Origin: a bacterium SCSIO 12741
GTDB lineage: Bacteria > Bacteroidota > Bacteroidia > Flavobacteriales_G > Salibacteraceae
Assembly: GCA_024398055.1 (NCBI GenBank)
Contig: CP073749.1
Span: 2,170,594 to 2,234,593 of the forward strand
DNA length: 64,000 nucleotides
Direction: 5' to 3'
Part shown: piece by piece, positions 18,113 to 20,373 of the stretch
Layout of the letters: each line of letters begins with the position of its first letter
Position numbering within the stretch: position 1 is the first letter of the stretch
Program-made: the position numbers and the translations under genes
The notes under the pieces: generated by a model
What the model saw: the letters and a program-made list of their open reading frames with translations, nothing else
Told to the model about the DNA's origin: nothing
The model's database searches: none

Positions 18113-18448
18113 GTGGACAAACTGTATAACTTGGATGAGTTGCGGGAAATGACCGGCAATGATGAATCCTTTATGAAAGAGATGATTCAGCTCTTCGTAA
18201 CCAACAACAAAGATTACCTCGAACAATTGAACCAAGGGCTTGAAGAGAAGGACTGGAAGAAGGTGAAATTCTTCGCTCATAAGATTAAACCTTCCATCCT
18301 AATGATGAAAATTGGTAAACTGGAAGACAATATTTACCGATTAAACGAGTTTGCTGGAGAGGAGAAGAATTTGTCGGAAATCCCTGCCCTGGTTGAAAAG
18401 TTGAACGATATTCTCCCTCAGGTTTTGGTGCAGCTTTCGGAAGAGTGA
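18113..18448 (+). CDS. Hpt-domain phosphotransfer protein
   Basis: A 111-residue all-helical protein from a GTG start 2 bases after the response regulator stop. It has the histidine phosphotransfer signature around VKFFAHKIKPSILMM; the His in AHKIKPS is the expected phospho-acceptor (canonical form AHxLKGS). The Gly of the canonical motif is replaced by Pro. It should shuttle phosphoryl groups between a hybrid kinase and the adjacent regulator's receiver domain. It is translationally coupled to the regulator by position. No kinase is present in the window. Confidence 0.85.
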   Translation: MDKLYNLDELREMTGNDESFMKEMIQLFVTNNKDYLEQLNQGLEEKDWKKVKFFAHKIKPSILMMKIGKLEDNIYRLNEFAGEEKNLSEIPALVEKLNDILPQVLVQLSEE

Positions 18449-18492
18449 AAAAATTATTAAGAAAGTTGTGCAAAACTTTAAGAGAATATTTT

Positions 18493-18500
18493 TAAATTTG
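18493..18500 (+). promoter_or_regulatory. Promoter candidate for structured RNA: TTG (18466-18468) and TAAATTTG
   Basis: A perfect TAnnTTTG -7 box with a TTG 24 bases upstream, just past the usual 17-23 spacing. It lies after the Hpt stop and before the double-hairpin region, with no open reading frame downstream on this strand, which fits a stand-alone RNA starting near 18507. Confidence 0.45.
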
Positions 18501-18564
18501 TCTCATAGTTCTTTGATACTCCCAGTATGGGAATGATAAAATTGAAATAAACAAGTAGTTTATA

Positions 18565-18590
18565 ACGATTGGTTGGTTGGGACCTCCTCC
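18565..18590 (+). repeat. 26-base direct repeat, copy 1
   Basis: Identical to 18657-18682, 92 bases downstream. It contains a doubled GGTT followed by GGGACCTCCTCC and supplies the 5' arm of hairpin 1. Confidence 0.9.
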
Positions 18591-18656
18591 TGTGTACGCC
18601 CTATTACCGGGAGGGCTCAAGGTCCTAGGCAAGTTTAAAACTACTTCATAATATTT

Positions 18657-18682
18657 ACGATTGGTTGGTTGGGACCTCCTCC
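18657..18682 (+). repeat. 26-base direct repeat, copy 2
   Basis: Identical to 18565-18590. It supplies most of the 5' arm of hairpin 2, whose 3' arm ends in AGGTCCCAA at 18722-18730. Confidence 0.9.
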
Positions 18683-18740
18683 CGCATAGGGTTTGTGCTT
18701 GTCACAAGCGGGAGGTACCTCAGGTCCCAAACGAAATTGG

Positions 18741-18775
18741 AAAGCGGTCATCTTCGGATAGGCCGCTTTTTTTTT
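18741..18775 (+). terminator. Rho-independent terminator of the structured RNA
   Basis: The stem AAAGCGG / CCGCTTT with a 15-base interior is followed by a run of nine T residues. It points rightward, so it ends the plus-strand transcript before the convergent gene. Confidence 0.85.
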
Positions 18776-18796
18776 GCCCAAATTTTTCTTCTGCAC

Positions 18797-18832
18797 AAAA
18801 AAAACGGCCCTTCCCAGGAGGAAAGAGCCGTT
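18797..18832 (-). terminator. Rho-independent terminator of the convergent T9SS protein gene
   Basis: Read on the minus strand, AACGGC pairs with GCCGTT and is followed by eight T residues (A run 18797-18804 on the plus strand). It lies about 27 bases after the stop at 18859. Confidence 0.75.
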
Positions 18833-18858
18833 AAGACATTTATGTTTTGTTTCGAGTA

Positions 18859-20373
18859 CTACTCGATTACCAATCGTTGGATAAGTTCTGATCCGTTTTG
18901 TTTGATCAGTACGATGTGCAATCCGCTTTCAATAGAGCGAATGTCAATTTTCTGTCCAGCTTCTGCTTCAATGACCATTTCTGAAGCTCCAAGTACATTG
19001 AATAACTCAAGGGTGAAGCTTCCTTCAATTCCTTGAATAGAAAGCCAGTCCTTAGCCGGTTGTGGTAGAATTTTCCAGTTTTCAAGGTTTGCACGGTTAT
19101 CTTCAATTCCTACATGAGATCCTAAAGTAATCGTGGTGTCTTTCTGGCAATTGTTGTTATCAGTAATTGTCACCGTGTTGTCTCCAGATGGAAGATCGGT
19201 GGCTACTGAGCTGGTTGAGCTTGAGTTGTCCCAGTCATAAAGATAAGGAGGAGTTCCTCCACCAGCCTTTACATGAATTTCTCCAGTATTAGGAGTTGTG
19301 CCTTCATCCTTAGTAGAATCAACAGTAAGGGTAAGAGCAGGTGGATCCATCAAAGTAACGTTGATAGAAGAAGTTTTTCCGGCCACTACGTCACTTACGG
19401 TTACGGTATGAGTACCTGAACCCAAATTACTCGCCTTAGCTGTACCCTGGCTGCCTGCTGAGGCACTCCACATATAGGTGTAATTTCCAGATCCTCCAAG
19501 AACGCTTACTGTGGCATCTCCCGTTTTTTCTCCAAAACATTTCGGATCGTTAGATGCTGAGATGTAAGTAAAAAGAGAATCGGTTAACTTGTAGTAAACT
19601 TCTGTTACAATTCCGTTTGGAGCATCTGCAATAGCTTCGGCAATGGGGTAGCTTTCGCCTTTGGCATACCAGCGGTAGCGGTAAGTAGTATCGTTAAGCT
19701 CGATAATCGGAGTGGTTGTCCACTGACCGGTTAATGCGTTGTAACCATTTACATCCAGATCGCGGTACTCTTTGGTGAAGACCTTGAGCACGTCATACGT
19801 CTTTTGAGGGGTGATCAATTTTCCCCATCCTTCAACCGTGGAAATAAACCCAAGATCTCCGTCGATGCGAATTTTGCTGTAGATCACAATGTTGGTATCT
19901 ACGACGGTGTCAATCAAAGTTACGCTGGTTTCAGCATCCTGATAGGTGAACGGGAACTCGATCATTTTAACATCCGGGTCAAAATTCATGTCCATGTTCA
20001 CTCCAGCCACGAAGGGAAGATTTCTAACTCCATCGATGATCAGGGAGTCTTTGCTTTTATTAAAGTAAATGGTTCCGTCAACCGGGTTATCCATAACCAC
20101 GTTGGCTCCTGGAAAAGCAGTGTCTTCAGGATACATAGTGGTGTTTACCTTACGAATACTCACCTTAAAGGTAGAGTCCGCTAAAATGGAAGAAAAGTCC
20201 CAGGTGTGGTTTGCCGTACCAGAAACGGAGGCTACTGAGGGGTTGCTCCCTCGGATAATGTCAAACTCTGTGCTTGGTGTATAAACGTCCGAACTATCCA
20301 GAACAATTGGGGTCTGGGCGAACAGGCTGGTTGAGAATACGAATAAAATCGCGGCAGATAAAAGGTGTTTCAT
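18859..20373 (-). CDS. T9SS type A cargo with SprB-type repeats
   Basis: A secreted protein of 504 residues. The signal peptide is about residues 1-20 (MKHLLSAAILFVFSTSLFAQ). Residues 20-270 are a domain I do not recognise that ends with YRWYAKG. Two SprB-type repeats follow at about 275-420 (CFGEKTGDATVSVLGGSG, YTYMWSA; then TGEIHVKAGGGTPPYLYDW). The last 75 residues (ENWKILPQPAKDWLSI, ELFNVLG, LHIVLIKQNG) form a T9SS type A sorting domain. SprB repeats are more usual in type B adhesins, so a type A signal on them is worth noting. It lies 27 bases downstream of the ABC exporter gene on the same strand. Confidence 0.88.
   Translation of the reverse strand: MKHLLSAAILFVFSTSLFAQTPIVLDSSDVYTPSTEFDIIRGSNPSVASVSGTANHTWDFSSILADSTFKVSIRKVNTTMYPEDTAFPGANVVMDNPVDGTIYFNKSKDSLIIDGVRNLPFVAGVNMDMNFDPDVKMIEFPFTYQDAETSVTLIDTVVDTNIVIYSKIRIDGDLGFISTVEGWGKLITPQKTYDVLKVFTKEYRDLDVNGYNALTGQWTTTPIIELNDTTYRYRWYAKGESYPIAEAIADAPNGIVTEVYYKLTDSLFTYISASNDPKCFGEKTGDATVSVLGGSGNYTYMWSASAGSQGTAKASNLGSGTHTVTVSDVVAGKTSSINVTLMDPPALTLTVDSTKDEGTTPNTGEIHVKAGGGTPPYLYDWDNSSSTSSVATDLPSGDNTVTITDNNNCQKDTTITLGSHVGIEDNRANLENWKILPQPAKDWLSIQGIEGSFTLELFNVLGASEMVIEAEAGQKIDIRSIESGLHIVLIKQNGSELIQRLVIE

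Follow-up and report, generated by a model that had tools for sequence, protein, structure and literature searches.

A twin-hairpin RNA is housed in the intergenic gap between an Hpt gene (18113-18448, + strand) and a convergent gene (18859-20373, - strand) of the window, that is the whole stretch of 64,000 nucleotides analysed. By comparison of related sequences it is a structured noncoding RNA of a new family; here it measures about 270 nt, and it is built on a doubled module. An undescribed structured RNA with a promoter box and a terminator had been proposed at this place in an earlier note, and the proposal is supported by the compensatory changes described below and by the search of the whole window against Rfam 15, in which 0 families reached the gathering score. 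The RNA would add a covariation-supported family to the Bacteroidota, a phylum with few understood sRNAs. The features of the locus, all on the + strand, are the following.

18113..18448, +, Hpt phosphotransfer protein of 111 aa, the upstream neighbour (Pfam Hpt, E 5.2e-8)
18493..18500, +, -7 promoter box TAAATTTG, of the Bacteroidota TAnnTTTG type; TAnnTTTG is found upstream in 6/6 homologs
18507..18775, +, inferred transcript, from 5' leader to terminator, with predicted start (fold z -5.0; conserved core 18554-18731)
18554..18560, +, 5' strand of P1, the outer stem around module 1; pairs with 18639-18645
18565..18590, +, module 1, i.e. the 26-nt repeat: unpaired UUGG repeats, then the 5' arm of hairpin 1; 100% identity to the module 2 copy
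18580..18625, +, hairpin 1: base 18580-18585/18620-18625, invariant; upper stem 18586-18596/18605-18614, covarying; bulge 18615-18619
18599..18604, +, hairpin 1 loop CCCTAT, candidate kissing site; complementary to 18686-18691 in 6/6
18639..18645, +, 3' strand of the outer stem P1; pairs with 18554-18560
18657..18682, +, module 2, the second copy of the 26-nt repeat; kept in 6/6
18671..18728, +, hairpin 2: 18671-18677/18722-18728 and 18678-18685/18708-18715; inner hairpin 18693-18697/18703-18707; bulge 18716-18721
18686..18691, +, hairpin 2 bulge ATAGGG, candidate kissing partner; complementary to 18599-18604 in 6/6
18742..18775, +, intrinsic terminator hairpin and T run; fold -16.0 kcal/mol (48-nt stretch), the 3' arm running into nine T at 18767-18775

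The two hairpins were said to open with the same 26 bases, and the 26-mers at 18565-18590 and 18657-18682 are indeed 100% identical, 92 nt apart. In each module an unpaired stretch, GAUUGGUUGGUUGG, precedes a hairpin whose base, GGACCU/AGGUCC, is invariant and whose upper stem covaries, with a bulge on the 3' side. The first hairpin is enclosed by an inverted repeat (18553-18566/18633-18646, 14 nt, 86% complementary). The outer stem had been given 9 bp; 7 pairs of this repeat (18554-18560/18639-18645) form in 6/6 homologs. Hairpin 2 is a composite stem of 7+8+5 pairs, close to the 22 bp first counted, and of the two AGGTCC 3' arms placed at 18620 and 18723 the second really starts at 18722. 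The convergent gene encodes SprB repeats and has a weak match to a T9SS tail. A terminator-like hairpin at 18803-18832 (- strand), 28 nt past the end of the terminator of the RNA, probably belongs to it.

Of the 34 further genomes in the family, 5 contain a homolog of the RNA, and in each the homolog follows the orthologous Hpt gene directly. When 100 genomes, the window's own among them and the others its relatives, were searched at the DNA level, strong matches (E no worse than 6.2e-36) came from 5 genomes besides the window's own, all within the same family; another four, short and weak (20-36 nt, E 0.002-0.009), were taken for chance. Model R1 matched 6 of the 42 genomes of the order, 35 of which belong to the family, and the six are the same. 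In the class sample, searched with stricter filters and 6 candidates scored per genome, R1 matched 1/395 genomes, the window's own, the five homolog genomes not being among the 395. In genome_contigs, a collection described as covering 84,980 species by one genome each, a scan for an exact 19-mer returned 5 records with two copies apiece, all MAGs labelled Flavobacteriales or Crocinitomicaceae bacterium; a longer exact pattern had 0 matches in the same collection. The RNA was unmatched in plasmids and, by exact pattern, in viral contigs. The full-model scan of 20 regulator loci recovered 3 known copies, all else scoring E 0.16 or worse. With an E limit of 1, the single-module model R2 had 21 matches in the 42 order genomes; 12 were the known modules, and the remaining 9 had E values of 0.015 or higher. 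The best of these extra matches (L141) sits within a 502-aa reading frame, and another R2 match (L155) overlaps the L087 site, itself within a same-strand reading frame. The distribution of the RNA family looks narrow.

The six sequences have been aligned for comparison. In alignment A3, which is fitted to the structure of the model and so leans towards it, 99.7% of the cells in the 49-pair structure are standard pairs, and double-sided changes occur at 12 of the 49 pairs (23 cells); shuffles average 6.1 such pairs, and 0/500 of them reach the observed value. Sliding the partners by 1-3 columns lowers pairing to 37-52%. In the unfitted MAFFT alignment A2, in which the 3' end of G002 is misaligned by one, 97.9% of the cells are paired and 10/49 pairs are doubly changed, a number again reached by 0/500 shuffles. 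Compensatory changes, which the earlier note had proposed to look for in homologous intergenic regions, are hence present in both alignments. The shuffles ignore the relatedness of the sequences; as these are only six, and three of them are 94-95% alike, independent double-change events are few, below the cell count. The count of further pair types is no higher than in shuffles, its value being reached by 440/500 (A2) and 483/500 (A3) of them.

Double changes are spread over several helices. P1, with its 7 pairs, has 100% of cells paired and 3/7 pairs doubly changed. The figures are 5/10 pairs and 98.3% of cells for the upper stem of hairpin 1, 4/8 pairs and 100% of cells for the upper stem of hairpin 2. 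The base stem of hairpin 1 is made of 6 invariant pairs; since the GGACCU/AGGUCC base pairs never vary among the six sequences, they yield no covariation support. The RNA core is better conserved (77-95% identity) than the Hpt gene (60-73%), the RNA being higher in 15/15 genome pairs. A coding explanation was considered and rejected, in agreement with the claim that no ORF accounts for the gap. Stops interrupt 16 of the 18 frames (3 per core, six cores), and the two open frames running through the core, one in G022 and one in G017, are different frames. Core lengths (193, 196, 189, 190, 190 and 191 nt) show several differences that are not multiples of three. Between lineages, the two hairpins show parallel changes in their 5' arms (A3 columns 35-37 and 132-134; a gap in G025 is placed differently), a pattern like that of gene conversion or of a shared constraint acting on both copies.

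For the 269-nt stretch the folding energy is -97.3 kcal/mol (z = -5.0), and 0/200 shuffles are equally stable. Its minimum-energy fold contains the local hairpins; its centroid has long-range pairing. The repeated 5' arms had been said to allow two alternative folds, by pairing with either 3' arm. On paper they do, and the folds compete in the window, where the 193-nt core has P(local) 0.33 and P(long-range) 0.67, as well as in G002, where the swapped pairing reaches P 0.83. In the other 4/6, however, its P is 0.002-0.031 and the swapped fold is 2.5-10.7 kcal/mol less stable. The suggestion is weak, because of these low values and because the covarying P1, being a nested helix, is compatible with the local fold only. 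Arm exchange between the hairpins is not a conserved feature. A conformational switch from local hairpins to a long-range duplex, formed by the 5' arm of hairpin 1 with the 3' arm of hairpin 2 and perhaps triggered by a kissing loop, would explain the high long-range values of the window core and G002, and also why the arms of both hairpins changed in parallel. The four species in which the duplex is disfavoured and the covarying P1 speak against it, and parallel change is equally accounted for by gene conversion between repeats; we regard such a switch as very unlikely.

A kissing contact between the hairpin 1 loop and the hairpin 2 bulge is suggested by their complementarity (CCCUAU/AUAGGG). 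In G025 the bulge reads AUGGGG, which results in one G-U pair with CCCUAU. When the loop letters of the homologs were shuffled, at least 6 consecutive Watson-Crick pairs were obtained in 1773/100000 trials, and random loops gave them in 129/100000. No double change is seen among the six sequences: 5/6 kissing pairs are invariant and one varies on one side, so that covariation neither backs nor refutes the contact. The kiss would keep the two modules side by side.

Signals for transcription flank the RNA in all six genomes. The -7 consensus published for Bacteroidota is TAnnTTTG (PMC7366714, in excerpt). A perfect box had been claimed upstream, and TAAATTTG lies just before position 18507, where the candidate had been said to begin. 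When each upstream 110-nt stretch is shuffled, 5-13% of the shuffles contain TAnnTTTG, and the product of these rates, about 7e-7, overstates the case for the box since the sequences are related. A shared -33 element was not seen by eye across the six upstream regions. The strong terminator described downstream was likewise found: a hairpin followed by a T run occurs, with differing sequence, in 6/6 homologs (-9.8 to -21.5 kcal/mol). A simple consensus scan listed no + strand terminator, and missed the hairpin of the window. Of the traits of structured trans-acting sRNAs in general, a conserved secondary structure with compensatory changes is present, and in 6/6 the sequence signals suggest a promoter and a terminator of its own. 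The RNA would be transcribed on its own from the TAnnTTTG box and end at its intrinsic terminator signal.

In another view the region is a 3' untranslated element of the regulator-Hpt mRNA, and the RNA would chiefly be that transcript's 3' end, whether stabilising or processed. The RNA lies on the same strand as the Hpt gene and always adjoins an Hpt ortholog, the -7 box starts 45 nt past the Hpt stop codon, and the terminator follows the RNA in 6/6. Against this, a conserved -7 box is interposed between Hpt and RNA in all six genomes, and a structure so elaborate and letter-invariant would exceed the needs of a 3' end. We consider this interpretation rather unlikely and favour an independently transcribed RNA.

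Close orthologs of the Hpt protein (E 7e-27 or better) are encoded by exactly the six RNA genomes among the 42 of the order, the next Hpt scoring E 3.9e-17. His56, in the phospho-histidine motif HKIKPS, is invariant in 6/6. A sigma-54 regulator gene is intact upstream of Hpt in 4/6. In G025, only a remnant with stops is found just upstream of Hpt (L102, L012; 29 C-terminal residues, 52% identical, E 6e-4), and the Hpt gene and the RNA beside it are intact; G022 gave no significant regulator match upstream of Hpt. Hpt and RNA thus outlive the regulator, decayed in one genome and gone in the other. The sigma-54 core patterns GG-N10-GC and TGG-N8-10-TGC, the two tried, are absent between Hpt and RNA in 6/6; one GG-N10-GC match falls inside the Hpt gene of the window. 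The RNA had been described as following a sigma-54 regulator and an Hpt gene. Hpt adjoins it in 6/6, but proximity to the regulator seems incidental, given that 2/6 lack an intact adjacent one and neither of the two core patterns separates Hpt from the RNA. We infer a closer tie of the RNA to the Hpt locus than to the regulator gene next to it.

These data bear on a possible likeness to Qrr RNAs. The Vibrio gene qrr1 neighbours luxO, and the Hpt protein of the pathway is LuxU (PMC8043402, in excerpt). Here too, with an intact regulator in 4/6 genomes, an sRNA gene is found near a sigma-54 regulator gene with an Hpt protein alongside, and the RNA might be an output switched on by the phosphorylated regulator, as qrr1 is by LuxO. 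Unlike Qrr, the twin-hairpin RNA has no sigma-54 core pattern upstream and no Rfam match, Hfq was found in 0/6 RNA genomes, and the regulator, decayed or missing beside the RNA in 2/6, is dispensable for keeping it. A Qrr-like role looks extremely doubtful.

The coincidence of Hpt orthologs (as defined by score) and RNAs in the 42 order genomes, and the survival of both after regulator loss, could also denote a dedicated pair, in which twin modules locked by the kiss would bind Hpt or a partner, and so couple the phosphorelay to RNA independently of the regulator. The coincidence could also reflect common inheritance of a single locus, and we hold a dedicated pair to be unlikely. The tie to the Hpt gene may connect RNA regulation with a phosphorelay.

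Within the modules, TTGGTTGGTTGGGACCTCC is conserved in 12/12 and GATTGG in 11/12, while the upper stems change freely. Letters are frozen both in the unpaired stretch and in the stem base, and in both modules, which points to a recognition site used twice. As the best explanation of the whole, kissing contact included, we tentatively propose, at a little under an even chance, that the RNA acts in trans as a two-site platform, most likely for a protein. A protein partner is favoured because the stem letters are frozen too, and because complementary sites are not in excess. Sponge RNAs of the CsrB/RsmZ type carry repeated protein-binding modules in one RNA, and by analogy the partner would be sequestered or brought together by the twin-hairpin RNA. 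The likeness is one of working and implies no kinship: what recurs in the twin-hairpin RNA is UUGG together with a GGACCU stem, and no Rfam family is matched. The Hfq family was found in 0/6 RNA genomes by a search that detects it in 5/14 named control genomes. RbpB-like proteins have an RRM_1 domain, and this family, used as a stand-in for them, was found in 0/6 RNA genomes and 2/14 named control genomes. At that sensitivity the partner, if a protein, falls outside both families, and the RNA would point to an RNA-binding protein of another kind. The doubled recognition module with its complementary loops offers a clear handle for finding such a partner in these bacteria.

Ranked next after the platform is an antisense sRNA, in which the two GAUUGGUUGGUUGG copies would be seeds pairing with CCAACC-type mRNA sites. 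In Bacteroidota, single-stranded seeds have been described for GibS and FopS of Bacteroides, which share with the RNA described here a conserved single-stranded stretch and an intrinsic terminator (PMC7366714, PMC11697453, both in excerpt). A long, conserved and doubled unpaired stretch fits a seed as well as a protein site, and the 16-mer AAGATTGGTTGGTTGG is found elsewhere in the genome before a hairpin and a terminator-like hairpin, as expected of a shared seed. Yet the complement of the 16-mer, with up to 2 mismatches, has 45 sites in the six genomes (12 being the RNA's own copies) and the reversed control 48, no excess in what is a weak test. Among 24 inspected of the 33 other sites, one (in G005) has an ORF of at least 100 aa starting no more than 300 nt after it on the same strand, at 34 nt. 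That Hfq was found in 0/6 genomes also tells against pairing of this type, and a pure seed leaves the invariant stem base unexplained. An antisense role is a serious contender, to which we give less credit than to the platform. In contrast to the twin-hairpin RNA, a doubled module and kissing loops are not described for GibS and FopS in the excerpts of these papers, and the RRM_1 stand-in for RbpB-like proteins was found in 0/6 of the twin-hairpin RNA genomes.

Where the gathering score is 115 bits, the Rfam model of GibS reaches 20.8, and its match is on the minus strand and outside the core. In permissive mode, Rfam gives 14 sub-threshold matches to unrelated families in 18400-18900, 8 of them to microRNA, snoRNA or scaRNA models. 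Rfp18 of Flavobacterium, compared by description only, is similarly a strongly structured Flavobacteriales sRNA, conserved in its genus (PMC9723704, in excerpt). No publication naming the twin-hairpin RNA was found among the matches listed, which comprise titles and openings of abstracts and mostly leave subscription journals outside their coverage.

The genome of the window has a single exact copy of the 16-mer AAGATTGGTTGGTTGG (G000:C1:363163-363178, minus strand), away from the twin-hairpin RNA, whose own copies read ACGATTGG... and not AAGATTGGTTGGTTGG. The five homolog genomes carry the 16-mer within their RNA; it was not found in the 394 other genomes of the class sample, outside which those five fall. 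The site (L061:1446-1517, - strand) lies outside ORFs of at least 80 aa, and is followed by a hairpin and by a T-ended terminator-like hairpin. The single-module model matches it weakly (17.1 bits, E 0.05), and matches of relatives to this stretch are short (26-31 nt). The 211-nt fold has z -5.0, and the site may represent another small RNA that shares the unpaired motif.
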